From positions 248,001-312,000 of the forward strand of contig NZ_JAEANY010000001.1 of assembly GCF_016019885.1 (NCBI RefSeq): 64,000 nucleotides of DNA, given 5' to 3'. Shown piece by piece: positions 2,858 through 23,610 of the stretch (positions within the stretch are counted from its first letter, which is position 1; each line of letters begins with the position of its first letter). The notes below the pieces were generated by a model. It saw nothing but the letters and a program-made list of their open reading frames with translations, did no database searches and was not told the DNA's origin. The stretch comes from Aurantiacibacter sediminis. GTDB taxonomy: Bacteria > Pseudomonadota > Alphaproteobacteria > Sphingomonadales > Sphingomonadaceae. A program made the position numbers and the translations under genes.

Positions 2858-7531
<4,674 letters not shown>

Positions 7532-7542
7532 GGGTCAGAATA

Positions 7543-8979
7543 ATGGGAAAAGAGACAGGCTTTCTCGAAGTCGACCGTGAAGATCGCACCTATGCCGATC
7601 CCAAGGAGCGGCTGAAGCATTACAAGGAATTCGTCATTCCGCATGACGAGCCGGCGCTGCAGAAACAGGCCAGCCGGTGTATGAATTGCGGCATCCCCTA
7701 TTGTCACAACGGTTGCCCGGTGAACAACATCATCCCGGACTGGAACCACCTCGTCTACGAAGGCGACTGGCAGAATGCACTGGAAGTGCTGCATTCGACC
7801 AACAACTTCCCGGAATTCACCGGCCGCATCTGCCCCGCTCCGTGCGAGGCGAGCTGCACGCTCAATATCACGGACCAGCCGGTGACGATCAAGAGCATCG
7901 AATGCGCCATTATCGATCGCGGCTGGAAGGAAGGCTGGGTGAAGCCGCAGCCGCCGAAGAAGCAGACGGGCAAGAGCGTCGCCGTGGTCGGCTCGGGCCC
8001 CGCCGGCATGGCCTGCGCCCAGCAGCTTGCCCGCGCCGGACATTCGGTGACGGTGTTCGAAAAGAGCGACCGCGTGGGCGGGCTGCTGCGCTACGGCATT
8101 CCCGACTTCAAGATGGAGAAGACGCTGATCAATCGCCGCGCGGTGCAGATGGAAGCCGAAGGCGTGACCTTCCGCACCAGCACCGAAGTCGGCGTCGATG
8201 TGTCGATGAAATCGCTGAAGGAAAATTTCGACGCGATCGTGCTGTCCGGTGGGGCGGAACATCCGCGCCAGCTCGAGATACCGGGCGCGGAAATGGCTGG
8301 CGTTCGCTTGGCGATGGAATTCCTTACCCAGCAGAACAAACGCAATGCAGGCGATGATGAAACCCGCGCCGCCCCGCGCGGCTCGCTGACCGCCACGGGC
8401 AAGCATGTTATCGTGATCGGCGGCGGTGACACCGGCAGCGATTGCGTGGGCACCAGCAACCGGCAGGGCGCGGCTTCGGTCACCCAGATCGAGATCATGC
8501 CGCAGCCGCCTGAGAAAGAGAACAAGCTGCTCACCTGGCCAGACTGGCCGATGAAGCTGCGCACATCCTCCAGCCATGAAGAGGGCGTGGAGCGAGACTG
8601 GGCGGTACTGACGAAGGAAGTGATCGGCGAGGATGGGAAGGTCACCGGCCTCAAATGCGTTCGCGCGGACTGGTCCGAAGGGCAGCTGAAGGAAGTGCCG
8701 AACAGCGAATTCACGCTGAAGGCAGATCTCATCCTGCTCGCAATGGGATTCCTCGGCCCGGTGCGGCGCGGAATGCTCGACCAGGCCGGAGTCGAGGTCA
8801 CCCAGCGCGGCAATGTCGATGCGAACGAGCAGGATTACCGCACCTCGGACGAGCAGATTTACGCTTGCGGAGACATGCGCCGGGGCCAGAGCCTCGTCGT
8901 ATGGGCCATCCGCGAAGGCCGCCAATGCGCCGCCAGCGTGGATGAAGCGCTGATGGGCGTCACCGAGCTGCCGCGCTAG
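7543..8979 (+). CDS. gltD: Glutamate synthase (NADPH) small subunit
   Basis: Supplies electrons from NADPH through FAD and iron-sulphur clusters to GltB. The N-terminal cysteine-rich domain shows [20 protein letters not shown] and [11 protein letters not shown], the two sets of cluster ligands. A first dinucleotide-binding fold follows ([24 protein letters not shown]) and a second one ([18 protein letters not shown]). [16 protein letters not shown] is the C-terminal FAD signature. 478 residues is full length. It lies 11 bases after gltB with a plausible Shine-Dalgarno stretch and forms the standard gltBD operon. Its last bases overlap the stop of a convergent membrane-protein gene. Confidence 0.97.
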
Positions 8980-9968
8980 TCCGCGCGCGCCTCAGCCAGC
9001 GCCGCACGAAAGGCGGCAGGTTCATCGAGGCGCAGGGCGATGTGAGTGATCAGCTTTGTTTTACCGAACAGGCCCGGGACTTCGACCGGCTCCCCCAGGC
9101 GGAGTGTCATGTTGGACGCGCTAAGGATCGTAGTGTCGATGGTCGATTTGGCCTTGAGCGTTTCGGCATCGAACGCCTCTCCCACTGCGGCAATCTTATC
9201 CAGCGGCACAGTAAAATCGAGCGGAGCGCCCGCGCGAATGCGGACATAGTCCGGACCCACCAGCACCGGCATCAGCCGCAGGCTCTTGGTGAGCGCGACG
9301 AACCAGAGCAATCCTGCCAGCGTTAGCGCGAAAGCGATCCATGCGACAACCGGATTCCACAGCATCAGCAGCAAATGCACGACACCCAGTTCGATCACCT
9401 GCAAGGCAATTAGCGTCACCAGCATGGGTGCGAGATAGCGGTGATAGGCGAAGCCCTTCGCGCCTTCAGGCACATCGGGGGCACGCCGCCAGACGAACAG
9501 CGCGAGGTGCATCATGCGTAGTTCGGTAGCCCACATTTTGACCATTGGCGGCGGCAGGACGCTGCCCAGCGCCGCTTCCCACTCTACGCCAACACGCCGC
9601 GCGGCGAGCAGCTTCACACCCGACCACACAGCCCAGAGGGCGATAGTGCCCGCCAGCGCTGCAAGCAGTGGCGGCATGGCGAGGATGCGTTCGCGCACCG
9701 CAGGCGCGCCGCCTAGCAGCACGATCAGCGCCCCGATCGCGGCCGCACTGAGCATTGCGAAGGCAGCGGGCCTGCGATCCTGCGCTTTGGCGATAGTCGA
9801 AAGACAGAGCGAGTCGACGACGATCCAAGCGAAGAGCAGCGCTGCAATTGTAACATTCGCCGCAGCCCAATCCGTATAGGTCATCAGCCGCGCGAGACCC
9901 ACAGCAGCAATAGTGGCGATAATCACCGCGATATTGCGCGGAATGCGAGCGATCAGGGCGCGTGCCAT
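8976..9968 (-). CDS. Multi-pass inner-membrane protein of unknown function
   Basis: A 330-residue protein with about seven hydrophobic segments: residues 12-28, 36-55, 70-85, 97-115, 182-205 and a pair between 207 and 232. A soluble C-terminal part of about 95 residues rich in beta-prone sequence follows. The linker between the two membrane blocks has a conserved-looking [20 protein letters not shown] stretch. I do not recognise the family and give no function. The gene is convergent with gltD, overlapping it by 4 bases, and lies 7 bases downstream of the acyltransferase gene on the same strand, so the two are likely one transcript. Confidence 0.75.
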
Positions 9969-9975
9969 GGCGCCA

Positions 9976-10917
9976 TCATAGGCCTTTCACAGAGGCGCGA
10001 AAGTGAGCATTTGTGAAGCGTTGTTGCATGGGCTGCAAGGCGGCGCGGCATCGCGGCTCGACCAAAAAACCCAGCACTATCGCCAGCAGGACTGCCGCAG
10101 GAATGGTCAGCCAGGCGGAGAGATCCATTTTCACTAGCGGGTGGTGGACAGCATAAAGCGCATAGGACGGAATACCCAGCCACGCGGCCACTTTCGCGCT
10201 CGGAAACTGGCTCACCGCGCCCAGCCACAAGGCGAGCGGCATCACCACCATCAGGGCAGCATAGTCGACCAGCACATTGCCATCCTGCGGCATCATCATG
10301 ACGGTGAAAGGCAGGAGCAGGGCGAGCATTCCCCACGGCCAGCCGAGGCGCATGCGGTTCAGAGTCACGATCCGGTAGATCGCAATGCCGATGCAGAAAC
10401 TGAACGCCGTGCGCGCGAGGCCATAGCCGAATGTATCCCATCGGAAGCCCAGGTCGGCACTACCGCGCACTTCGATGCCTATGACGACGCCGACCAAGCC
10501 TATCAGCAGAGCTGCCACCCATGCGCGCCGACCAAAGCCGAGCAGGAGGGCAAATGCAGCCCCCGCGATGAATTCAAACAGGAGCGACCAGAGCGGAATA
10601 TTAGCGGGATAGAGAAAGGTCCTGCCTGTAGGAATCATCAGCAATGTCCCGGCAGAACCGCCATTGATCGCCAGACCGATCGCGGCCCCGATCACCATCA
10701 TGGGCCCAAGCCGGATAAGCCGTTCGATCAGGAAAGGCCCTGCTTGCATGCGGTGGGCATAGGCGTGAAACAGCACAAATCCGCTGAGCGCGAAGAACAG
10801 ATCAACGGCGAGGTATCCGCGCGGCACCAACCGCCCGGCATGGTAAAACACCACAGCCAGAGCCGCGATCCCGCGCATCGCATCAAGCGTGTGAAATCTC
10901 TCCGCACTCCTCGTCAT
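9976..10917 (-). CDS. Acyltransferase family 3 (OafA/YrhL-like) membrane protein
   Basis: The N-terminus FHTLDAMRGIAALAVVFYHAG is the acyltransferase-3 signature, with the conserved RG and the catalytic-type His. FFALSGFVL follows, as in OafA, NodX and similar enzymes that move acetyl or other acyl groups onto surface sugars from the cytoplasmic side. About ten transmembrane segments fill the 313 residues. There is no C-terminal SGNH domain. The substrate is unknown. The enzyme could modify the lipopolysaccharide or exopolysaccharide made by neighbouring loci, but it is separated from them by regulatory and repair genes. Confidence 0.85.
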   Translation of the reverse strand: MTRSAERFHTLDAMRGIAALAVVFYHAGRLVPRGYLAVDLFFALSGFVLFHAYAHRMQAGPFLIERLIRLGPMMVIGAAIGLAINGGSAGTLLMIPTGRTFLYPANIPLWSLLFEFIAGAAFALLLGFGRRAWVAALLIGLVGVVIGIEVRGSADLGFRWDTFGYGLARTAFSFCIGIAIYRIVTLNRMRLGWPWGMLALLLPFTVMMMPQDGNVLVDYAALMVVMPLALWLGAVSQFPSAKVAAWLGIPSYALYAVHHPLVKMDLSAWLTIPAAVLLAIVLGFLVEPRCRAALQPMQQRFTNAHFRASVKGL

Positions 10918-11002
10918 GGCACGGGTTTAGCGCGAATTGCTTGCGTTTCTCTCAATCGCGGGAGGGGAGCTCGCCGGACGATCTGCCCGGTGCAACCCGG
11001 CT

Positions 11003-12073
11003 TCAGCGCGCTTGCAGCTCGGCAGAGATACGCGCGACGATTGTCGGATCGTCGGCGGCTGTTTTCTCCTCCGGGATTTCGAGGAATCCTTCGTGGAGTT
11101 GGGCAATGCGCTGGCATTGCATCAGTCCAAGGCCATAGCCTTCGCCGACATGCCCGTCTTCCGGTTTGGAAAACGGCTTCATCGCCAAATGGCGCTTCTC
11201 CTTGGGAATGCCGGGGCCATTGTCGCAAAAGCCAAACTCATATTCCCCGCCGTCGCGCCTGACGGTCAGTTTGACCACCGGTTTTTCGACCCCCGCATGG
11301 CGCACGGCATTTTCAATCAGGCTTTGCATCATCTGTCGAAACAGAGTCGGCTCGACGACGACTACCGGCAAGCGCGGAGAAAGAATTTTTGCCCCATGAC
11401 TGATCAGCAGCGCGGACAAATTGAAGCGAACTTCCTCCAGCACAAGGTTGAGATCGGTTCGCTTGAAAGTCAGGCCGAGTTGGTCTGATTTCGCAGCCTC
11501 CAGCATGGCCGTAAGGTGATTGGCAAGGCCATGCGCGCTTTCCTTGACGGCCTTACTGACTAGTGTGGCGCGTTCGCTCAGGCTTGAATTCTTGTCCCGC
11601 TCAATAATGCTCACACCGCTGATGATCGCTGCAATCGGGCTGCGCAAATCATGCGCCACCGAATGGGCATATTCACGCAATTGCCGGTTGGCGCGGGTCA
11701 GCGCGTGCTCGCGATTCTTTAGCGCGGTAATGTCCTTGGCAATCGCCAGCAGCAATTCCTCGCCACCCTCTGTCGTATAGACCGTCTTGCGCGTGCTGAG
11801 GATCCGCGTTTCACCCTCCCAATCGGTGATCTCTTCGACGATTTCGGATTGGCCGCTGGCAAATGCCTTGCGGTCCTCCTCAAGGAAAAGCGTAGCCTCA
11901 TCTTCGGCAAAATTCTCGGCTGTCGTCGCGCCGATCACGTGCTTGCGTTCTTCCGGCGAATAGAGGGCGAGAAACGCGTCATTGGCATAGACGACGCGGG
12001 ATTCGCGGTCTTTGACAAAAATCAGGCTGTCAGTGCTGTCCAATACGGCATGGACGAATCCTTCGCCAAGCAT
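11003..12073 (-). CDS. PAS-domain sensor histidine kinase (orphan)
   Basis: Residues 1-120 form a PAS domain (LDSTDSLIFVKDRESRVVYAN, with a PAC-like end at LLLAIAKDITALKNREHAL). A HisKA dimerisation domain follows with the phosphorylatable His in HSVAHDLRSPIAAI, then an HATPase_c domain with N-box QSLIENAVRHAG, G1 box FCDNGPGIP and G2 box GEGYGLGLMQ. No transmembrane segment or signal peptide is visible, so it is probably a cytosolic sensor. No response regulator gene lies next to it. The ligand is unknown; the PAS domain lacks the NCRFLQ motif of LOV domains. Confidence 0.92.
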   Translation of the reverse strand: MLGEGFVHAVLDSTDSLIFVKDRESRVVYANDAFLALYSPEERKHVIGATTAENFAEDEATLFLEEDRKAFASGQSEIVEEITDWEGETRILSTRKTVYTTEGGEELLLAIAKDITALKNREHALTRANRQLREYAHSVAHDLRSPIAAIISGVSIIERDKNSSLSERATLVSKAVKESAHGLANHLTAMLEAAKSDQLGLTFKRTDLNLVLEEVRFNLSALLISHGAKILSPRLPVVVVEPTLFRQMMQSLIENAVRHAGVEKPVVKLTVRRDGGEYEFGFCDNGPGIPKEKRHLAMKPFSKPEDGHVGEGYGLGLMQCQRIAQLHEGFLEIPEEKTAADDPTIVARISAELQAR

Positions 12074-12146
12074 GACCTTTCCCCTTCTCGCGCAAACTGC
12101 AATCGACCCTTCCGCGAGTCAAGGCAATGACATTTCGGCAAATTTT

Positions 12147-12473
12147 TTACCCTGCACACCCCACGCAGCGCGCCACACTTGGATCATTCTTAAGCCGCCC
12201 CGCAGCGATCTCTTCGCCGCATTTTGCGCAATAGCCCCATTCGCCTTCGTCGAGCCGCGCAAAGGCAGCCCTGATCCGCGCGCGTTCTGCGCCGCGGCGT
12301 CGCTCCTCGGCCTGCGCCATCGCCTGCTGTTGCATTGCGTCCATACGAGAGAGGCGGCCGACACTGTCCTGTTGCAGAGTGACAGGCTCGCGGCCCTCCG
12401 CGCTCAACGCATCGAGCCGGTCCAGCTCTTCCAGTCGGGCGGTGAGAGCCTTGCGCGCGTCATCCTCTGTCAT
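12147..12473 (-). CDS. DksA/TraR-type C4 zinc-finger protein
   Basis: A 108-residue protein. A helical coiled-coil-like region (residues about 5-70, rich in Arg, Glu and Ala) is followed by a four-cysteine zinc finger, CAKCGEE then ARCVGC, spaced C-x2-C-x17-C-x2-C. Proteins of this type bind the RNA polymerase secondary channel or act as small TraR-like regulators. The N-terminal part is shorter than in true DksA and I see no clear acidic coiled-coil tip, so a DksA role is not assured. ATG 12473 is preferred to an in-frame start at 12521 because the coiled coil begins right after it. Confidence 0.85.
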   Translation of the reverse strand: MTEDDARKALTARLEELDRLDALSAEGREPVTLQQDSVGRLSRMDAMQQQAMAQAEERRRGAERARIRAAFARLDEGEWGYCAKCGEEIAAGRLKNDPSVARCVGCAG

Positions 12474-12639
12474 GCGAGACAGCTTTCCTACAAACTGCGC
12501 GTTTGTCAAAACCCCGCCCATGGTCGGCGCAGTGCAAATTTTCTTTCCGGTACAGCATTTTGCAGGCGCAAAACCTGCCCCGGAGATTTTGCCTCAGGAC
12601 ACTGTCACACCTGTCACACCCTTCGGCGATCGAATCGGA

Positions 12640-13323
12640 TCAAAGCGACCAGTCGACAGGCTCACACCCCTGCGCTTCCAGAAAGGCGTTCGTCCGGCTG
12701 AAGGGCTTACTGCCAAGGAAGCCGCGATGGGCGGACAGCGGGCTGGGGTGCGGGCTGGTGATGAGCAGATGCCGATCGCTCGCGCCCAATGCCGGAATGC
12801 GCTTTGCCTTGGCCTGCGCATGGCTGCCCCAGAGGATGAAAACGCACGGAGCATCGCGCTCGGCCACTGCCGCCACGCAGGCATCGGTAATCGCGTCCCA
12901 GCCCTTACCCGCATGGCTGCCCGCCCTGGCTTCCTCCACCGTCAGCGTGTTGTTGAGCAGCAGCACGCCCTGCTGCGCCCAGCTTTCAAGGTTCCCATGG
13001 GTGGGACGCGCAATGCCGATATCGCTCTCCAGCTCCTTGAAGATGTTGACCAGCGATGGCGGCACTTTGACGCCGTCCTGCACCGAGAAGCACAGGCCAT
13101 GCGCCTGCCCCGACCCGTGGTACGGATCCTGCCCCAGGATCACGACTTTTACGCTGTCCAGCGGCGTCAGCTCCAGCGCGCGCAGTCGGCACCCGCGCGG
13201 CGGGTAGATACGCTTGCCCGCATCCTCCTCCGCGCGCAGCCAGCCACCCAGCTTGCGCGCTTCAGGCGCGGCGAGTGCAGGTTCGAGGACCGGCTTCCAG
13301 CTATCGGGAATGGCATCGGACAT
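12640..13323 (-). CDS. ung: Uracil-DNA glycosylase, family 1
   Basis: Removes uracil from DNA in base-excision repair. The active-site motif GQDPYHGSGQAHGLCFSV contains the catalytic Asp, and the second motif HPSPLSAHRGFLGSKPFS supplies the conserved His and the DNA-intercalating loop. LLLNNTLTVE, the uracil-recognition strand, is also present. 227 residues matches the usual length. It reads divergently from the RNase D-like gene, with 113 bases between the start codons that include a dispersed repeat. Confidence 0.96.
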   Translation of the reverse strand: MSDAIPDSWKPVLEPALAAPEARKLGGWLRAEEDAGKRIYPPRGCRLRALELTPLDSVKVVILGQDPYHGSGQAHGLCFSVQDGVKVPPSLVNIFKELESDIGIARPTHGNLESWAQQGVLLLNNTLTVEEARAGSHAGKGWDAITDACVAAVAERDAPCVFILWGSHAQAKAKRIPALGASDRHLLITSPHPSPLSAHRGFLGSKPFSRTNAFLEAQGCEPVDWSL

Positions 13324-13337
13324 GGATCAACCTCTCA

Positions 13338-13368
13338 TCGCCCTGCGACAGGCTCAGGACGAACGGAT
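13338..13368. repeat. Short dispersed intergenic repeat copy
   Basis: The stretch around GCGACAGGCTCAGGACGAAC matches, from memory, the short element that recurs between genes in many sphingomonad genomes (its other strand reads GTCCTGAGCCTGTCG). Only this copy was noticed in the window, in the ung/rnd divergent gap. Its role is unknown, and a whole-genome count would be needed to confirm that it is repetitive here. Confidence 0.5.
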
Positions 13369-13436
13369 AGGGGCGCCGGGATCGCAGGGCCAGTCCGCCC
13401 TTCCCTCCTATCCCCATTGCGACTAAGGCGGCAGCG

Positions 13437-14054
13437 ATGACTGTACACTTTCATGAAGAAGACCTGCCCGCAGGCGTGCTCGCCGATGGCCCCGTTGCCG
13501 TCGATACCGAAACCATGGGGCTGGTGACGCCGCGCGACCGGCTGTGCGTCGTCCAGATCAGCGATGGCCAGGGCGATGAGCATCTGGTGCGCTTTGCCAA
13601 GGACAGCACCTTCGATGCGCCGAACCTAAAGGCGGTGCTTGCCGATCCGGATCGGATCAAGATCTACCATTTCGCGCGTTTCGACCTTGCCGCCATCGAG
13701 CACTATCTGGGCGTGGAAGCAGGCCCTGTCTTCTGCACCAAGATCGCCAGCAAGCTGACCCGCACCTATACCGATCGCCATGGCCTCAAGATCCTTGTCG
13801 ATGAACTGCTGGGCGAGTCGATCTCCAAGCAGCAGCAGTCGAGTGACTGGGGTGCGGCGGAACTCAACGATGCGCAGCGCGAATATGCCGCGTCCGATGT
13901 GCGCTACCTCCACCGCATGCGCGAGGTCTTCATCGAGCGGCTTGAGCGCGAAGGACGCACCGCAATGGCGCAGGCCTGTTTCGACTTTCTGCCCACCCGC
14001 GCCCGGCTCGACATTGCCGGCTGGGCAGAACACGACATCTTCAGCCACGCGTAA
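13437..14054 (+). CDS. Ribonuclease D-like 3'-5' exonuclease (catalytic domain only)
   Basis: The DEDDy exonuclease motifs are present: Exo I AVDTETMGL, Exo II around IYHFARFDLAAIEHYLG and Exo III YAASDVRYLH (Tyr-x3-Asp). At 205 residues it lacks the HRDC domains of full RNase D, as do the short alphaproteobacterial homologues. It probably trims structured RNA 3' ends in the cytosol. It is followed by lptC and lptA, a gene order I know from other alphaproteobacteria. Confidence 0.9.
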   Translation: MTVHFHEEDLPAGVLADGPVAVDTETMGLVTPRDRLCVVQISDGQGDEHLVRFAKDSTFDAPNLKAVLADPDRIKIYHFARFDLAAIEHYLGVEAGPVFCTKIASKLTRTYTDRHGLKILVDELLGESISKQQQSSDWGAAELNDAQREYAASDVRYLHRMREVFIERLEREGRTAMAQACFDFLPTRARLDIAGWAEHDIFSHA

Positions 14055-16029: not shown

Positions 16030-17438
16030 CACGAGGTCGGCTCTCTGCGGGAGACCATCAGCACAATGCACAGCGCCGCAATGCACAGCAGCGACTGGTT
16101 GCGCAGCGGGTAATCGACCAGCGATTGCAGCGCGATCGCCCCTACCGCTGCGCCCGCGCCCAGACGCAGCCAAGTGCCCTTACCGCTTCGACGCGGCAGG
16201 GCGGAAAGCAGCACCCAGCCGAGCCAGAGCAGCGCGATCACCAGCGCAAAGATGCCGCCCTCGATCGCGATCTCCAGCCAATCACTATGCGCTCGGCCCG
16301 CGCGGCGCGGCGATATGTGTTCGAGCGACTCGTGGACTTGGAAAACCTCGTCGAACGTGCCCATCCCGCTGCCCACCGGCCAATACTGTCCGGCTGCGTA
16401 ATAACTGTCTTCCCACATCTCCGGCCGGTCTGCAGCGCCCGCCGATACGAAGCGATCGACACTTTCGGAAACCCGCCCCCCGGTCATATAGGAGGCCGCA
16501 AACAGACCACTGACGAAAACTGCCGCAGCAAGTGCGATCCCGAAAGCCATCCGCGGATTGGCCTGCTCTTGCGCTTCTCGCCCGATCACCGCCGCGCCCA
16601 GCCGTAGGAGGAAAAGTCCCAAGGGCATGGCGAGCAGAGCCATGCCAGTCCGGGACTGGGTCAGCACCACGGCAAGCGTGAAGAACACCGTAGCAGTGCC
16701 GGTGACGAGGACACTCAGCAGATCCTTTGGACGAGGAAGCGCCGCCAGGAAGGTTAGCGCGATCACGAACAACAATGCGGTCGAATTGCGGTTCGCGAAT
16801 GTCGCGTAGAAAACACCCGGATCGGACCGCTCATTATAAAGGAGGCCCCACTGATTGCCGGACGCAAATTGCACGACGCCGAGCAGGAAGGCCCCCGAGA
16901 CACAGAGCAAGGTAAAGCGCAGCAAGGCCAGCTTTTGGTCGCGCTCGAGCGTGCTGCCGATGGCAATGATGACTAGCGGTGCCAGCGTGCCGCAAAAGGC
17001 GACCAAAGTGCGCATGGGATCGACGCTGGCAGGAAACCAGCGATCCGCGCCAAGACCTGCGATCGCAAAGCTTTCCGCAATCAGGTCGCGCCCGGGCAAG
17101 CTTTGCCAGAGAGTGGGCGGCAGATAGATCAGCTGGATCAGCGGGAGAGCCAGGGTCGCGGCGACCAGCACAACCAGTGCGCGGGGGGCATAACGAGCAA
17201 AATCGGAGCAGGTGCGCCAGTTCACCGCCAGCACAGCGATGGCCGCCAGCTGGATGACCATATTGCTGAGGCCATAGGCCACGCCGCCGCCGCCCAGCAG
17301 GATAGCGAGCGTAATGAGGACGCAGAGGTGCAGAACCGGCGCATTGCGCCAGAGGGCAAATTGTCGAGATTGATGATTAACGCCCGTAAGGCGGTTTGGG
17401 TCAGCCACCCGTGCCAGGCGAGGCGTTGGAGCCCTCAT
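16029..17438 (-). CDS. O-antigen ligase/polymerase family membrane protein (WaaL/Wzy-like)
   Basis: About 469 residues with 10-12 transmembrane segments and one large periplasmic loop (about residues 315-385). The typical Wzy_C elements are present: YNERSDPGVFYATFANRNSTA before a long helix, and AHSDWLEIAIEGGIFALV near the end, which is the H-x-D/E region of O-antigen ligases. It either joins polysaccharide chains to a lipid carrier product or polymerises repeat units. GTG 17408 is an alternative start that would reduce the overlap with the small protein gene upstream. A second gene of this superfamily lies at 34761-36116. Confidence 0.85.
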   Translation of the reverse strand: MRAPTPRLARVADPNRLTGVNHQSRQFALWRNAPVLHLCVLITLAILLGGGGVAYGLSNMVIQLAAIAVLAVNWRTCSDFARYAPRALVVLVAATLALPLIQLIYLPPTLWQSLPGRDLIAESFAIAGLGADRWFPASVDPMRTLVAFCGTLAPLVIIAIGSTLERDQKLALLRFTLLCVSGAFLLGVVQFASGNQWGLLYNERSDPGVFYATFANRNSTALLFVIALTFLAALPRPKDLLSVLVTGTATVFFTLAVVLTQSRTGMALLAMPLGLFLLRLGAAVIGREAQEQANPRMAFGIALAAAVFVSGLFAASYMTGGRVSESVDRFVSAGAADRPEMWEDSYYAAGQYWPVGSGMGTFDEVFQVHESLEHISPRRAGRAHSDWLEIAIEGGIFALVIALLWLGWVLLSALPRRSGKGTWLRLGAGAAVGAIALQSLVDYPLRNQSLLCIAALCIVLMVSRREPTS

Positions 17439-17664
17439 TGGTGTCCGCGGCCACCAGCACCAGCAATCCGCCGCCGATCAGCAATGCGCCAAGCAGGATG
17501 TAGATGAAACCTTCATCGTCATCATCATCTTCGTCCGTGATGGCAGCGATCTGTATGGTCTCAAGCGAGATACCGGCGCTATTCGCACGCGTGTTCGCCT
17601 GCGCCGCGATAGGCGTAATGGCCATCAAGGTGGCGGCGGCGATTGCAAGCGCGTTCTTCAGCAT
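17401..17664 (-). CDS. Small secreted or membrane-anchored acidic protein
   Basis: 87 residues. An N-terminal signal sequence (LKNALAIAAATLMAITPIAAQA) is followed by a short linker with an acidic run (TDEDDDDDEG), one C-terminal transmembrane segment (FIYILLGALLIGGGLLVLVA) and a Gly/Ser tail. No family was recognised. ATG 17664 is chosen because the signal peptide begins there. It heads the minus-strand O-antigen-ligase group and is divergent from the asparagine-synthetase-like gene, with 155 bases between the starts. Confidence 0.7.
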   Translation of the reverse strand: MLKNALAIAAATLMAITPIAAQANTRANSAGISLETIQIAAITDEDDDDDEGFIYILLGALLIGGGLLVLVAADTNEGSNASPGTGG

Positions 17665-17819
17665 TCGGACTATCCCGTAGCGGTCGATGCCTCGGTTTAG
17701 TCCCGCCATAGGGTGCAATGCAAGCTGCGTGCGACAGTCCGCTCCAAGCATTCGCTGGACACAGGCGTCGGCGCCACTCTAGAAACCCGTCACCTCCCGC
17801 ACTCAGATGGAAAGCACCG

Positions 17820-19709
17820 ATGAGCGCAGTCGCGGCGATCCTGCACACAGACGGCGAACCCGCCGCCGCATCTGCGATCAGCGCGATGACCGCTGCGATG
17901 CATTATCGCGGGCAGGACGGTGTGCATCATCAAGTGCTGGGTCCGTGCGCCATCGGCCATTGCGCGCTCCACGTCAGCGCAGAAGATCGCGACAGTGTGC
18001 AGCCGCTTAGCGAAAATGAAGCGAGCTATACGATCTCACTCGACGGCTATGTGGCGAACTACGAGGAACTGCGCCGCGATCTGACGCAGCGGGGCGTCAC
18101 CTTGCGCAATCGCTCCGACGCGGAACTGGTCCTTCAGGCCCACATCCTTTGGGGCCGAGAATGTCTCGAGCACATAAACGGCGAGTTCGCCTTTGGCATT
18201 TATGATCACGCCAATGAAACGCTGTTCTGCGCCTGCGACCACACCGGGCTTCGTCAGTTGCATTATCATTGGGACGGGAGGACATTCGTCGCGGCCACCG
18301 ATATCGCCGGTGTTCTGGCAGCGCTGGATGAGCGGCCCGCGCCAAACTATGGATATCTGGCCGAGCATATCGCCAATGGCTGGTTCACTTATGACGAAAC
18401 GCCGTGGCAGGGCGTCATGCGACTGCCGCGCGGGCACTGCCTGACGTTCGAAAACGGCAAGCTCCAGCGGCGCGAATATTGGGAACTGCCACTCGAAATT
18501 ACCACACGCTACCGCAGCGATGGCGAGTATATCGAGCATTATCGTAGCCTGCTGACAGAATGCGTTGCCGAGGCCGGGCGCAGCGATCGGCCCGTGGCGT
18601 GCGAAGTCAGTGGAGGGCTCGATTCATCGGCCATATTCGCACTGGCGAACCAGATGGATCGGGCGAGCAATTGGCCTTCCCCCGGTCTGGCAGGTTTCAC
18701 GCTATCGGCCCCGCGCGGCACGCCTGCCGATGAAGCGCGTTACATTGAAGCTCTGGCTTCTGCCATCGGTCGAGAGATAGAGGCCGTACCGCTGTTCTGC
18801 CCCGATCTCGACTGGTTCGAAGCGCAAGCACAGATTGATCAGCGCCTCCCCTTCTTGCCCAACACCGTGATGCTGCGCGGCCTGGCCAAGGCCGCGTCAG
18901 ATAACGGCTGCCGGATCAGCCTTACTGGCCAAGGCGGCGATCAGTGGCTCGATGGATTGCCGCATTATTATCGCCAGTCCTTGCGCGGCGGGGATTTGTC
19001 CGCCTTCGGGCGGAGCTTTCGGGCGGATCGGCGCGCGCGTGGCCTAGCATGGTCGGCGGCGCAGGCGGTCAGGCAGAGTGTCGTCGCCGGTTTGCCCGAT
19101 GGCGTCACGGACGGGCTGCGCGCTTTGCGAGATGGCGAGCCTGAAATCGCGACAGGCACGCATTGGCTGTCAGGCGAAATGCAGCGGGAGCTTCGGAGAC
19201 GCTCCAACGCTTTTAGGGCGCAAATGGCAGCATTGCCCACCGATGACCGCCCCAAGCGCGGCAAGCTGGTCGCGCCCTTCGCGCTGCTCGTCTTCGACAT
19301 GCTCAATGTGCAAGCGGCTCGCCTCGGTGTAGAAAATCGCCATCCGATGCTGTCACGCAAGTTCATCGAGTTCAGCGCGCGCACGCCCGAACACATCCGG
19401 CTGCGCGGCGGCACGACGAAGCATATCCATCGCGAGGCGATGAAGGGCATTTTGCCGGACAAAATCATCGATCGCGAGAGTAAAGCCCATTTCAGCCAGA
19501 CTTTCCTGCCCTATCTTCCCGAAATGCAGGCACTTGTTGCCGAGCAAATCCATGAAAATGCTGAATTTCGCCAATTAGTTGAAAGCGACACGGTGTGCGC
19601 CGCGTTCGACGGGGCGAAGGGTGCTCCGATTGACCAGATACCCATCTGGTCGCTATGGGGAACATATGCATCAGCCCTGTTTTTGGAACAGGCGAGAGTA
19701 GACTATTGA
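17820..19709 (+). CDS. Asparagine synthetase-like lasso cyclase homologue
   Basis: Two domains: an N-terminal glutaminase-like domain and a C-terminal ATP-pyrophosphatase synthetase domain. The start MSAVAAILHTDGEP has Ser where functional AsnB has the Cys2 nucleophile, so glutamine hydrolysis should be lost, as in lasso-peptide macrolactam synthetases. The synthetase domain is intact: CEVSGGLDSSAIF is the PP-loop, followed by LTGQGGDQWLDGLP and the late KAHFSQTFLPY motif. The expected reaction is adenylation of an Asp or Glu side chain and amide-bond formation with an N-terminal amine. The neighbours (a lasso-leader protein 21 bases downstream, HprK, PqqD) support a RiPP role over free asparagine synthesis. 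ATG 17820 is preferred to an upstream start at 17718 because the domain begins there. Confidence 0.85.
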   Translation: MSAVAAILHTDGEPAAASAISAMTAAMHYRGQDGVHHQVLGPCAIGHCALHVSAEDRDSVQPLSENEASYTISLDGYVANYEELRRDLTQRGVTLRNRSDAELVLQAHILWGRECLEHINGEFAFGIYDHANETLFCACDHTGLRQLHYHWDGRTFVAATDIAGVLAALDERPAPNYGYLAEHIANGWFTYDETPWQGVMRLPRGHCLTFENGKLQRREYWELPLEITTRYRSDGEYIEHYRSLLTECVAEAGRSDRPVACEVSGGLDSSAIFALANQMDRASNWPSPGLAGFTLSAPRGTPADEARYIEALASAIGREIEAVPLFCPDLDWFEAQAQIDQRLPFLPNTVMLRGLAKAASDNGCRISLTGQGGDQWLDGLPHYYRQSLRGGDLSAFGRSFRADRRARGLAWSAAQAVRQSVVAGLPDGVTDGLRALRDGEPEIATGTHWLSGEMQRELRRRSNAFRAQMAALPTDDRPKRGKLVAPFALLVFDMLNVQAARLGVENRHPMLSRKFIEFSARTPEHIRLRGGTTKHIHREAMKGILPDKIIDRESKAHFSQTFLPYLPEMQALVAEQIHENAEFRQLVESDTVCAAFDGAKGAPIDQIPIWSLWGTYASALFLEQARVDY

Positions 19710-19730
19710 ACATACGAAGGCAGTGAGACC

Positions 19731-20087
19731 ATGGAACGCCAAAAAGCCAAAAAGTCCGCTTACGTCCGGCCTGAGCTAAAGGTCTTCGGATCGGTGCGCA
19801 ATCTGACGGGCGGCAGCCTGGGCAATGTGGGTGATGGCGGCATCATGACGATGGCCATGTCGGATCCGCGGGCGAAGCAAAATATCGTTCGCGTCGGCTC
19901 GCACCCCGCAGGATTTGGCTTCTATCGCTTTGATTACAAGCCGCAATTCCAGGCCGAGCACGGTGCTGATCGCCAGTTCGGCGTGATGGCGGATGAAGTC
20001 GAGGCGATCCTCCCTTCCGCCGTCACCCGCGATGCCAAGGGCTACGCCCGCGTCGACTATGCTCAGCTGGGAATTACCCTCGCCTGA
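19731..20087 (+). CDS. Lasso-leader/Peptidase_S74 fusion, putative RiPP precursor
   Basis: 118 residues in three parts. Residues 11-27 fit the lasso leader rule Y-x2-P-x-L-x3-G-x5-T-x: Tyr11, Pro14, Leu16, Gly20, with Thr26 at position -2. Residues 28-35, GSLGNVGD, would be ring residues Gly1 to Asp8. The register, as I recall it, equals that of the lariatin precursor, whose core begins GS and closes on Glu8. Residues 44-118 are a Peptidase_S74 domain: SDPRAKQNI, then GFGFYRFDYKP, FGVMADEVEAILPSAV and YARVDYAQLG. Ser44 and Lys49 match the spacing of the self-cleavage dyad of phage tailspike chaperones. Cleavage there would leave a segment of about 17 residues. The start has a purine-rich site (GTGAGACC) upstream. 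The product is an inference. Confidence 0.75.
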   Translation: MERQKAKKSAYVRPELKVFGSVRNLTGGSLGNVGDGGIMTMAMSDPRAKQNIVRVGSHPAGFGFYRFDYKPQFQAEHGADRQFGVMADEVEAILPSAVTRDAKGYARVDYAQLGITLA

Positions 20088-20133
20088 TTTCGGGCTTTAC
20101 GCGCCGATGCTTTGCCGGGACAATGGCTGAGAC

Positions 20134-21258
20134 ATGGCCGGCACTCTCGAAGAACATTACGAATATCTATCGACGGAGCGGAGGCACGAGCTTTATGCGC
20201 AGGCCATCGCGAAAGCCTTGGCCCCGGGCGATACCGTGGCTGATCTGGGCTGCGGCTTCGGCGTACTGGGCTTTCAGTGCCTGGAAGCCGGCGCGGCGCA
20301 AGTGCACGGCCTCGATCGCACCGATGCGATAGAAATTGCGCGCGAAACGGCGCGGCGGGAGGGGCTATCTGATCGCTATCATTGCATTCGCGGCAGCAGC
20401 TTCCGAACAGAGCTGGACGAGAAAGTCGAGCTAATCATCTGCGATCATGTCGGCTTCTTCGGCATCGACTATGGCATTATCGCGATGCTGGGCGATGCGC
20501 GGCGGCGGATGCTGAAGCCTGGGGGGACCGTGATGCCTCGGCGGATCGATTTGCAGATTGCCGGCGTGCGATCGGACAAATGCGCGAAACTCACCAAAGC
20601 GTGGTCCACCGCTCCTGTGCCGAGCGAGTATGTGTGGCTGGACGGCTATGCTGCCAATTCGAAGCATCGCGTGGAACTGGCTGCGGACGAATTGTGCAGC
20701 GCGGTTGCTGCGCTTGGCAGCGTTTCGCTCGACAGCGATTGCCCCGATGTGCTGCGCTTCAAAAGTGAGGTCACTATTGAAGAAGGCGGCGTGCTCCATG
20801 GAATTGCGGGCTGGTTCGATTGCGAATTGGCAGAAGGCGTTTGGATGACAAACTCGCCTGTCGAGGATCGCGCCATCGCCCGATCGCAGGCATTCTTCCC
20901 GCTTGGCAAACCCATGGATGTCGAAGCGGGCGAGAGGCTAAGCGTCTCTTTCCGCATCGATCACGAGCATCAAGTCCTGTCCTGGACCGTGGCGCGGCAG
21001 GACGGAAGAAATGCGCAGCCCATGTCCACTTGGTGCAGCACGATTGTGTCGCCGAGCGACCTGTCCGGGCAAAGCGGCACACCGCTGCGAGCCAACGACC
21101 TCGGCCGTGCGCGGAAAGCCTTGCTTGACCTGATCGATGGCCATCGCAGTGCACAGGACATTGAAGCCGCGTTGCTCGCAATGAAACCGCCGCTTTTCCC
21201 GTCAGAGGATGAGGTGAAGCGCTTTTTGACCCACGAATTGAAATCGGTCTCCGAGTGA
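20134..21258 (+). CDS. PRMT-like SAM methyltransferase with C-terminal PqqD-like tail
   Basis: The N-terminal Rossmann domain has motif I VADLGCGFGVLGFQCLEAGA and acidic loop VHGLDRTDAIEIA. The HYEYLSTERRHELYAQAI start is that of protein-arginine-methyltransferase-like enzymes. The double-E loop is replaced by CDHVGFFGIDYG, so Arg methylation is doubtful. A beta-barrel-like middle follows. Residues about 325-374 (RARKALLDLIDGHRSAQDIEA and beyond) resemble the C-terminal helices of PqqD-type recognition elements. It lies 46 bases after the lasso-leader gene, and its stop overlaps the next start (GTGA). It may methylate the precursor or its product; the target is unknown. Confidence 0.8.
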   Translation: MAGTLEEHYEYLSTERRHELYAQAIAKALAPGDTVADLGCGFGVLGFQCLEAGAAQVHGLDRTDAIEIARETARREGLSDRYHCIRGSSFRTELDEKVELIICDHVGFFGIDYGIIAMLGDARRRMLKPGGTVMPRRIDLQIAGVRSDKCAKLTKAWSTAPVPSEYVWLDGYAANSKHRVELAADELCSAVAALGSVSLDSDCPDVLRFKSEVTIEEGGVLHGIAGWFDCELAEGVWMTNSPVEDRAIARSQAFFPLGKPMDVEAGERLSVSFRIDHEHQVLSWTVARQDGRNAQPMSTWCSTIVSPSDLSGQSGTPLRANDLGRARKALLDLIDGHRSAQDIEAALLAMKPPLFPSEDEVKRFLTHELKSVSE

Positions 21259-22112
21259 CACCTGCGCCGGTCCTGCAAACGATGGCCGCGCGCGAGCAGG
21301 AAGCGCTTGCCAGCACACCCTACGATCGATGGCTGACACCTGCCGGGGATGTGGCTGCGGAATTTCACCGGACGGGCGTTAGCTATCTTATGCGCTTTCC
21401 GAACCAGGCCGATTTCAGCATCGCGGCAGATTTGGCCGAGATCGTCTGTCTTCCCGCGCCAGAGACCGACGAGAAGACTATCGCGTCGCTTTTCGCCAAT
21501 TCGGTCAGGCCCGTAATCGGCAACCATGCAGGTGAGCTGAACCTCCACGGCAGCGCGGTGGTGATCGGCGGAAAGGCGATCGCGATCATGGGTTATTCAC
21601 GCCGGGGCAAGACGACGCTGGCAGGCGCGCTCGCAAAGGCTGGGCACCCATTTTTGAGTGAAGACGTGCTGGCCCTCACACTTGACGGTCGCAAATATGA
21701 GGTCGCGCCCCAAAGGCCCGTGCTTCGCGTCTTTGCCGACACCGCCGCATACCTCGCTGGGCAGCCGCCTTCGGACCAGGGTGAGAAAAGCGAGATTGCG
21801 GGAAGCGCGGATTTGCCGGCAGCACATCACTCGGCCGAGCTTGGAGCCATTTGCCTGCTCGGCGCGGGCGAGATAAATACAGTGTCTATCACGCAGCTAG
21901 GACCATCCGCGGCGCTGGCTGATATCATGCAGCACAGCTTCGTGCTGGATGTTGAGGATCGCCGGAGGCTGTCCGCGCATTTCGAGCGACTTGCTGCGCT
22001 GGCCAATGCTGTCCCGTGCTATCAGCTTGACTATCCGCGGGACTTCGCGCGATTGCCGGAGGTCGTGGCAGCAATCGCGGACAGCTTTGATGGGCAATAC
22101 AATGGCGATTGA
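21255..22112 (+). CDS. HPr kinase/phosphorylase-like protein
   Basis: 285 residues. The P-loop region reads VVIGGKAIAIMGYSRRGKTTLAGAL, preceded by NLHGSAV as in HprK-related proteins, and FLSEDVLAL follows as the Walker-B-like element. The usual second Gly pair of GxSGxGK(S/T) is replaced by Arg-Arg. The N-terminal HPr-sensing domain of true HprK is absent. In paeninodin-type lasso clusters a homologous kinase phosphorylates the peptide's C-terminal residue; here that would need a released Ser or Thr end. Start GTG 21255 overlaps the methyltransferase stop, and the 3' end overlaps the pqqD-like start, so translation is coupled. Confidence 0.82.
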   Translation: MTPAPVLQTMAAREQEALASTPYDRWLTPAGDVAAEFHRTGVSYLMRFPNQADFSIAADLAEIVCLPAPETDEKTIASLFANSVRPVIGNHAGELNLHGSAVVIGGKAIAIMGYSRRGKTTLAGALAKAGHPFLSEDVLALTLDGRKYEVAPQRPVLRVFADTAAYLAGQPPSDQGEKSEIAGSADLPAAHHSAELGAICLLGAGEINTVSITQLGPSAALADIMQHSFVLDVEDRRRLSAHFERLAALANAVPCYQLDYPRDFARLPEVVAAIADSFDGQYNGD

Positions 22113-22389
22113 GGCAGGCGACAGTTTTACTTCATCCCCCGATGTCATCGCGCGCGAAGTGGGCGGCGAGACGGTGCTGCTCGATCTGGAAAACGGCGTG
22201 TATTTCGGCCTCAACCCCGTGGGTGGGCGAATCTGGAACTTCCTTGACGGCGAGACGCGCTCCGTCGTCGAAATTACTCAGTTACTGTCCGAGGAATATG
22301 AGATCGATGCCGTCCAGGCCGAGGCTGATGTGATTGCGCTGGCGACCGACCTGCTCGAACACGGATTGATAAAGCCTGCTGCGGATTGA
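22102..22389 (+). CDS. PqqD-like RiPP recognition protein (lasso B1 type)
   Basis: About 95 residues with the PqqD/RRE pattern: SPDVIAREVGGETVLLDLENGVYFGLNPVGGRIWNFLDG, then a helical second half ending LLEHGLIKPA. The winged-helix beta strands of such proteins bind the Y-x2-P leader motif of lasso-type precursors. This makes it the natural partner of the leader in the protein at 19731-20087. ATG 22090 is an alternative start; either one overlaps the kinase gene. In canonical lasso clusters the B1 gene is followed by or fused to a B2 transglutaminase-like protease, but here the next gene is a convergent nucleotidyltransferase. Confidence 0.85.
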   Translation: MAIEAGDSFTSSPDVIAREVGGETVLLDLENGVYFGLNPVGGRIWNFLDGETRSVVEITQLLSEEYEIDAVQAEADVIALATDLLEHGLIKPAAD

Positions 22390-22395
22390 CTGGCG

Positions 22396-23610
22396 CTATT
22401 GGCCACGTCCTGCGAAAACATTTCGGACACCGCTCGCGAAGCGTCTTGCGTACAATAATGGCGCAGGCCAATGCACGGCTTCGGGGAAGCGCTTCTCCAA
22501 GGCATCCTTCGAAGGGAACAGGTGGCGCTGAAGGTGGCCTAAGCGGGGCACAAACCCATCAAGGCTTCCCAGATCGCGCCAGAGACGTGCTCCTGCCGAT
22601 CCCAGCGCAAAATAGCTCTCGACACCCGTCACGTCGCTTTTCCTCGCAAGCCGGGAGGCGACATCATCCGGCAATGGCGCGTCGAAAAATGCGTCGACTT
22701 TTTTGAGTTGGTCGAGGCACATCGCGCCCATCTCCCGCCTCTCTGCCGCGGCGACCAGATCGGCCCAATCCGCGTCGGAAAATCGCTGCATAAGAAGCGC
22801 GATATCGAGCAGCCAGATCAGCCGGTCATCTGCGAAGACCCGAGCATAATCCTGGATATAGCCCGACAGATCGTGCAGCCTCTGGTTCATCACGGCGCGC
22901 AGCAATAGGAGCGGCGGAGAGAGCGTTCGCGCTGCGTCGCATAGGCGGGGCAGCGGGATTTGATTTTTGAACAGGATTACCTCACCGAAGACCTGTGCGA
23001 GGAAAGGCGTGCCCACGCTGCGCCAATGCAGGTCGATCGCATGGACGAAGCCCATGCCGGTGTCGAAAAGCCAGCTTTCCTGCCCAAAATAGTCGATCTC
23101 ATGCCGCGTCCAGTCGAGCTCTTCCAGCAAAGCGCGGACGGAATCGAGCTGCTGCGGCTGTATCAGCACGTCGCTATCCCCGCGCCTGCGTGCGGCAGGT
23201 GTGTCATGCAGCAGATATGCCGTCGCCGTGCCTTTCATGACGATGCAGTGGATCTGCTCTGCGGCCAATCGCTGAAGCACCGGGACGAGCACATCGCGGT
23301 GCGATTCTTCCCAGAGCACTTGCAGCCGTGCTTCATCACGAATGGCCTCGATCACTTCGGCTGGCCAGCTCGAAAAATCATGACCGATCTCGATCAGTGC
23401 CAAGGCGATCCCATGATAGCGTATGCGCTCAATCGCCGCCTTTTCTTCAGCCGACCACGCGTCTTGCCAATCCGCCTGCTCGCCGCGCAGCATCGCAGCC
23501 AGCGCAACGTCCAAGCCGCGCAATACGGGTGCATGCTCGGTAAGGGTTGCAGCGGACACTGGCACGGATGAAAAGCCTTTCGGTTCTGCCGGACAAGGGA
23601 CAAGGGTCAC
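22396..23610 (-). CDS. Nucleotidyltransferase family protein (PF14907 type)
   Basis: 404 residues. [17 protein letters not shown] followed by [15 protein letters not shown] is the nucleotidyltransferase-5 signature, in which GDSDVLI supplies the two metal-binding aspartates and the Lys-Gly turn lies upstream. DLHWRSVG provides the third acidic/aromatic block. Genes of this family recur beside HprK-like kinases and PqqD-like proteins in lasso-type clusters, where their reaction is poorly known. It is convergent with the pqqD-like gene with a 6-base gap, and divergent from rfbA. Attribution to the RiPP cassette rather than to the polysaccharide locus is inference from this co-occurrence. Confidence 0.82.

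Follow-up and report, generated by a model that had tools for sequence, protein, structure and literature searches.

The window, by which we mean the whole 64,000-nucleotide stretch of Aurantiacibacter sediminis DNA analysed here, contains at 19731–20087 (plus strand) an open reading frame for a fused precursor of 118 residues, in which a leader, a predicted lasso core and a Peptidase_S74 domain follow one another. The leader (residues 1–27; 19731–19811, plus strand) reads Y11-x2-P14-x-L16-x3-G20-x5-T26-x, with Thr26 at position -2, and the predicted core GSLGNVGDGGIMTMAM (residues 28–43; 19812–19859, plus strand) starts G28-S-L-G-N-V-G-D35, with a putative ring between Gly1 and Asp8; the translation of the frame confirms this leader and core register, which the first-pass annotation had proposed. 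The follower (residues 44–118; 19860–20084, plus strand) starts S44-D-P-R-A-K49 and matches PF13884 (Peptidase_S74, Pfam) over residues 44–99 of 118 with 33.9 bits, above the gathering score of 22, in agreement with the earlier placement of the S74 opening at Ser44 with Lys49. The leader half of that proposal fared less well in the profile search, as the NCBIfam lasso models fell on the right residues (8–28) but, for the window protein, did not reach their cut-offs (NF033521, 14.2 against 19 bits; NF033528, 14.6 against 33). Counted up to Ser44, with the predicted cut at Met43–Ser44, the core has 16 residues instead of the roughly 17 first given, and its cyclised form has a calculated mass of 1491.65 Da.

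The precursor gene lies 21 bases downstream of a gene for an AsnB-type candidate lasso cyclase (C protein; 17820–19709, plus strand) and 46 bases upstream of a methyltransferase gene (20134–21258, plus strand), beyond which genes for an HprK-like kinase (21255–22112, plus strand) and a PqqD-type leader-binding protein (B1; 22102–22389, plus strand) each overlap their upstream neighbour; given these short gaps and overlaps, 17820–22389 looks like a single operon. Convergent with it is a gene for a nucleotidyltransferase of the NTP_transf_5 type (22396–23610, minus strand; PF14907, 90.8 bits), to which tblastn finds matches near the cluster in many relatives. The best NCBIfam model for the AsnB-type protein is the lasso cyclase model NF033535 (285.9 bits, cut-off 525), ahead of asparagine synthase (235.8 bits, cut-off 267.1), both being sub-threshold, and the PqqD-type protein, which matches PF05402 with 76.9 bits, has as its best NCBIfam model the lasso PqqD family NF033536 (59.8 bits, below 80). 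Both kinase models score below their cut-offs (TIGR04352, 29.5 against 200; PF07475, 18.7 against 33.3), and the methyltransferase, which has no counterpart match in some relatives, matches PF13847 (37.3 bits, cut-off 27) with a weak PRMT-type C-terminal part (PF17286, PRMT5_C, 28.7 bits, below 30.3). Cys2 is absent from all 38 AsnB-type rows with a readable start and SGGLDS is present in 39 of 40, the window protein having both features; lasso cyclases are usually without the glutaminase Cys, as would be expected if glutamine is not used by the synthetase. The frame at 17401–17751 (minus strand) encodes a small protein that starts like a signal peptide and has an acidic stretch but no Pfam match; in many same-genus loci, tblastn places matches to it upstream of the cluster.

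Genome searches recovered 24 distinct proteins that combine leader, core register and S74, the combined search for both parts that the first-pass annotation had suggested; according to their sequence records, they come from alpha-, beta- and gammaproteobacteria. In a genus draw of 40 genomes, 21 matched (9 fused, 12 leader only), and in a family draw of 397 genomes at E <= 0.001, 20 matched, of which 5 were fused, 8 had the leader alone and 7 the S74 part alone. An order draw of 346 genomes at E <= 1e-20 contained the fusion in 5, and class (385 genomes) and phylum (398 genomes) draws at E <= 1e-12 returned the identical 3 fusion genomes, with 2 and 10 further genomes, respectively, whose matches lie in frames of 164–706 aa and start no earlier than profile position 16; the leader-core-S74 fusion is rare in broad genome draws. 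A contig scan with two S74 peptide patterns gave 17 loci, 16 of them fused and one (L071) with a stop at the Ser, which by their record titles belong to Erythrobacteraceae, other Sphingomonadales, Mesorhizobium, Thiobacillaceae, Burkholderiales, Competibacter, Contendobacter and MAGs whose placement is less exact. A chance fusion or frame artefact is ruled out by 24 distinct fusions in three proteobacterial classes. We also rejected a prophage gene as an explanation: in 5 of the 7 S74-only family genomes, those read as frames, the domain ends longer proteins of about 250–430 aa, the other two being weak matches (E 5e-4 and 8e-4). A match in Roseobacter phage CRP-3 that spans residues 1–113 (30% identity) turned out to lie at the end of a 1860-base CDS, and the leader pattern is absent from 80 viral S74 relatives (of 84 found, L200 being off-frame and L150 cut by a contig end).

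Alignment of the 24 distinct fusions (omitting L085 and L087, whose proteins are identical to L066 and L067, and L071 with its stop at the Ser) revealed sixteen columns that are invariant in all of them: Tyr11, Pro14, Thr26, Ser44, Lys49, His58, Tyr65, Phe67, Tyr69, Phe83, Gly84, Ala87, Glu89, Pro95, Gly104 and Val108. Mean column entropy is 1.40 bits in the leader from Tyr11, 2.27 in the core and 1.08 in S74 up to residue 113, so that a conserved leader and a conserved follower enclose a variable core, the RiPP pattern of fixed recognition parts flanking a diversified product. All 24 match PF13884 at E <= 0.01, and the NCBIfam lasso-leader models match 18 and 19 of them at E <= 0.1 (best E 1.7e-5 and 5.8e-6). 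Core position 1 is Gly in 17 fusions, Thr in 2, Asn in 2, Ala in 2 and Ser in 1, and an Asp or Glu acceptor stands at core position 8 in 22 and at position 9 in 2. The first-pass annotation had expected five residues to be kept in homologues: Tyr11, Pro14 and Thr26 are, but 7 of the 24 lack Gly28 and Asp35 is altered in 4 (two Glu at position 8, two Asp at position 9), although every fusion has an acidic residue at 8 or 9; since two of its named residues vary, that interpretation is only partly supported. Core residues other than Gly are acceptable at the first position of lasso peptides. Fused cores starting Thr-Lys, with the acceptor at position 9, occur at L068 7968–8333 and L069 2599–2964.

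These data bear on whether the product is a lasso at all, as the AsnB-type enzyme might instead form an open macrolactam or another amide, making the peptide an unthreaded RiPP. Such a product would fit window scores for AsnB, PqqD and leader that all lie under the curated lasso cut-offs, the 7 of 24 cores that start with Thr, Asn, Ala or Ser, and the many tails without bulky residues. We nevertheless regard it as distinctly unlikely, given that leader, AsnB and PqqD each score best with an NCBIfam lasso model and that Thr at -2 (PMC10885120) together with Asp or Glu at position 8 or 9 (rings of 7–9 residues, PMC8498205) is the lasso pattern as described in the accessible parts of these two papers.

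The neighbourhood is conserved along with the precursor. Among the 16 fused loci of the contig scan, AsnB lies upstream in 13, with an HprK-like gene downstream in 14, PqqD downstream in 13 and the methyltransferase in 11, counts bounded by contigs that start just 5' of the precursor (L079, L082) or end within the methyltransferase gene (L074); AsnB upstream with HprK and PqqD downstream is also the arrangement in distant classes. Extra frames separate the precursor from the next cluster gene in L075, L077, L079 and L081, and in L075 frames are broken in AsnB and apparently also in the methyltransferase gene. In most same-family loci, the cluster lies between an O-antigen-ligase-like gene and dTDP-rhamnose genes, the rhamnose label being read from sequence.

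The window cluster contains no gene for a B2 peptidase or an ABC exporter. A B2 beside a lasso precursor is usual, not defining. The genome holds one B2 match (PF13471), which lies at C8:382348 and has an ABC transporter, a second AsnB and a sulfotransferase as neighbours. B2 lies about 2 kb from the precursor in four of nine fused same-genus genomes (G251, G407, G410, G414), so its absence is a trait of the window's close kin and not of the fusion; a loss of B2 tied to the fusion was likewise rejected, for B2 is absent near the fused precursors of G000, G378, G103, G398 and G412 but also near the unfused one of G415. The locus around the single B2 match (L061, G000:C8:374000–392000, 6547–13973) is a second lasso-like locus of the same genome, with ABC transporter, B2, second AsnB, HprK- and PqqD-like genes and sulfotransferase, in which a leader-pattern scan yields no precursor; this locus might supply the window cluster with B2 and export. 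The lack of B2 and exporter in cis would also be expected of a non-functional relic, a notion that we find barely credible, because S74 dN/dS is 0.07–0.15 in eight of ten close pairs (those computable), meaning that the S74 part is under purifying selection, and because the same fusion occurs in three classes.

Known carriers of the domain found in the follower include MYRF and the phage endosialidase endoNF. According to the accessible part of PMC8326128, MYRF is cut at the bond before Ser587, with both Ser587 and Lys592 needed and equivalent to endoNF Ser911 and Lys916, while Y615 and Y617 lie at the cutting site. A profile alignment to the MYRF ICA domain 7dc3 (E 1e-5) places window Ser44 and Lys49 on the MYRF Ser and Lys positions, the Ala at the Ser position of the aligned 7dc3 chain fitting the S587A construct of the same paper, and F67 and Y69, both invariant in the 24 fusions, on Y615 and Y617. 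An AlphaFold model is confident over residues 41–110 (block means 85–93), with leader and core poorly modelled; among solved structures it matches MYRF ICA best, weakly by fold score although clearly by sequence profile. In MYRF, the accessible text of PMC8326128 makes trimer formation and autocleavage depend on a C-terminal triple coiled coil, with cutting requiring the trimer. The fusions end 8–13 residues past a VDY-type motif (viral relatives, 1–16, measured in 77 of 80), and a C-terminal coiled coil of the MYRF type, which is not a Pfam-defining feature, is absent, the model having only a short helix there; a trimerising role is thus less certain. Of 80 viral S74 relatives, 79 likewise have a Ser-[Asp/Asn]-x3-Lys motif; any S74 acquired by descent would be expected to keep it, so that invariance of the Ser and Lys by itself is no proof of cutting.

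The nearest PHROGs are virion structural and DNA ejection families (phrog_6121, E 4.5e-19; phrog_4287, E 1.6e-10). With phage virion and ejection proteins as its closest relatives, the S74 part could conceivably be a phage mimic that co-assembles with and spoils phage S74 ejection or tail proteins, the lasso being warhead or passenger. We hold this to be highly improbable, as the fusion lies in a RiPP-type cluster by O-antigen-ligase-like and sugar genes, and the genes examined bear no sign of defence or prophage.

Evidence on where the core ends came from stand-alone precursors of the GSVRNLTGGS type in the same genus and family (G285, G359, G014 and others), which share the leader, the ring register and the kind of cluster and stop about where the S74 of the fusions begins. 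Core length has a median of 17 in both groups (24 fused, range 15–30; 18 stand-alone, range 15–26, omitting stand-alone precursors of G409 (2) and G416 and the second one in L082; Mann–Whitney p 0.57), and equal lengths imply that the stand-alone cores stop near the point at which the fused ones would be cleaved. The core of G285 ends ...GGFMTMV and that of the window ...GGIMTMAM before the Ser. At L071 (7923–8358), an in-frame stop coincides precisely with the Ser position, and S74 can still be read downstream; an otherwise invariant His is also changed there, and, L071 being a MAG, sequencing error could explain the stop. Release of the C-terminus by self-cleavage, as the first-pass annotation suggested, would agree with these stand-alone core ends and with the Ser-Lys pair required in MYRF, and gains from them, in contrast to the trimerising role proposed alongside it, which is weakened by the missing coiled coil. 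Since stand-alone relatives do without it, the pathway does not generally require S74, and no S74 remnants were found 3' of 17 stand-alone precursors in 16 loci (lowest shuffle count 5/60, L124). Unfused precursors occur in tandem pairs at L125 6988–7600 (G402) and L130 1006–1321 (G409), and L082 has a second, unfused precursor-like frame (6984–7178, minus strand) some 6 kb from its fused one, with another HprK-like match at 6066–6749.

Were S74 never cut, it might serve as a permanent folded stopper or oligomerising anchor, turning the product into a natural protein rotaxane, perhaps at the cell surface. A minimal S74 with no coiled coil would suit such a role, as would core tails that are Gly/Met-rich and often poor in bulky plugs, and C-terminal fusions to lasso tails are tolerated in astexin-1 and pandonodin (PMC8498205; PMC13003496; both in their accessible parts), the pandonodin cyclase PanC working with a 98-residue C-terminal extension (PMC13003496). 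We judge the uncut form unlikely in view of a Ser44 and a Lys49 that are invariant in all 24 fusions, of stand-alone relatives that end at the same place and of L071, which stops at the Ser.

We consider it probable that the protein is a lasso precursor with a captured phage intramolecular chaperone and autocleavage domain as its follower, which would free the core C-terminus by a cut before Ser44. PqqD would bind the leader, and a B2 leader peptidase encoded elsewhere in the genome would cut after residue 27; the AsnB-type cyclase would then join the new Gly1 amine to Asp8, closing the ring around the threaded tail, while the folded S74 holds the C-terminal end of the core. The Ser44–Lys49 pair, acting as we picture it after cyclisation, would cut Met43–Ser44 to give the 16-residue core and a 75-residue S74 fragment, and export may, like B2, be provided from another locus. 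More tentatively, and with rather less confidence than in the cut itself, we propose that the S74 donut grips the core tail as MYRF's grips its cable and acts as a bulky stopper during ring closure before cutting itself. If so, the mechanical bond and the C-terminus would both be set by one captured phage domain, and up to three lassos could mature per S74 trimer.

The history of the fusion was approached through two trees. In the first, an AsnB tree with 38 rows, of which 36 have a scored state (L130, L131 and L132 omitted as partial or duplicate), the fused state is found in both deep branches and recurs inside Erythrobacteraceae, with at least four state changes, two of them forced by starred branches. 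The tree is compatible with an ancestral fusion, which it does not establish because its distant rows came from a fused query. A search with AsnB, which carries less bias, found 5 among 398 genomes at E <= 1e-100, one of them new (G966; L218 7000–7700), in which a precursor-like frame ends early in the core and is followed by a transposase-like frame (by reading), making it uninformative on the direction of change. A short S74 tree of 87 rows groups the 24 fused and 3 viral rows in one starred set (97/88); a single origin for the fused domains is not rejected (p-AU 0.24), yet it occurs in only 8% of bootstrap trees. On these sequences, the simplest story would be that S74 was captured once from a phage protein, passed down with the cluster and lost repeatedly.

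Among known systems, the closest are the proteobacterial split B1/B2 lassos (pandonodin and the kinase-bearing paeninodin type), which, as far as the accessible part of PMC8498205 describes them, share Thr at -2, the Gly1 to Asp/Glu8–9 register, the AsnB-type cyclase, PqqD, the HprK-like kinase and a nearby nucleotidyltransferase; they differ from the window cluster, which has a 75-residue S74 follower and no B2 in cis. Characterised lasso-cluster kinases act on a C-terminal Ser according to the same source, whereas none of the 24 fused proteins has a C-terminal Ser. Phage endoNF and MYRF, from what is accessible of PMC8326128, share PF13884, its C-terminal place, the Ser and Lys five residues apart and aromatics at two MYRF cutting-site positions; in contrast to them, the fusion has no apparent upstream triple beta-helix and no C-terminal coiled coil, and it carries a peptide of about 17 residues, where their cargo is a trimeric fibre or a transcription factor. 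Bottromycin likewise has sequence C-terminal to its core that needs removal, but the accessible part of PMC10885120 assigns this to a separate amidohydrolase, PurAH, whereas here the follower would be its own protease; the fused precursor, unlike that of bottromycin, has an N-terminal leader too.

The first-pass annotation knew of no described lasso precursor with this architecture, and a literature search, whose coverage left out most subscription journals, found none; the few papers in which both subjects come up, PMC10040529 among them, do not concern a lasso–S74 combination. A natural self-cutting follower is, as far as could be seen, undescribed. If our reading is true, a folding, self-cutting follower would set the end of a peptide in a new way, would offer lasso engineering a genetically encoded release device, and would be one more instance, besides MYRF, of the phage autocleavage domain being put to another use. 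Such lasso clusters are ones that genome miners may miss, because the precursor resembles a phage tail-fibre protein.

Some precursors lie outside such clusters. Fused orphans in L076 and in genome G041 adjoin a gene for a TauD-family dioxygenase (Pfam), with which the orphan fused precursors of two genomes, at L027 9282–10645 and L076 8004–9358, are convergent, and in G344 (L023/L037) an unfused orphan precursor lies beside a frame that is TauD-like by reading only.
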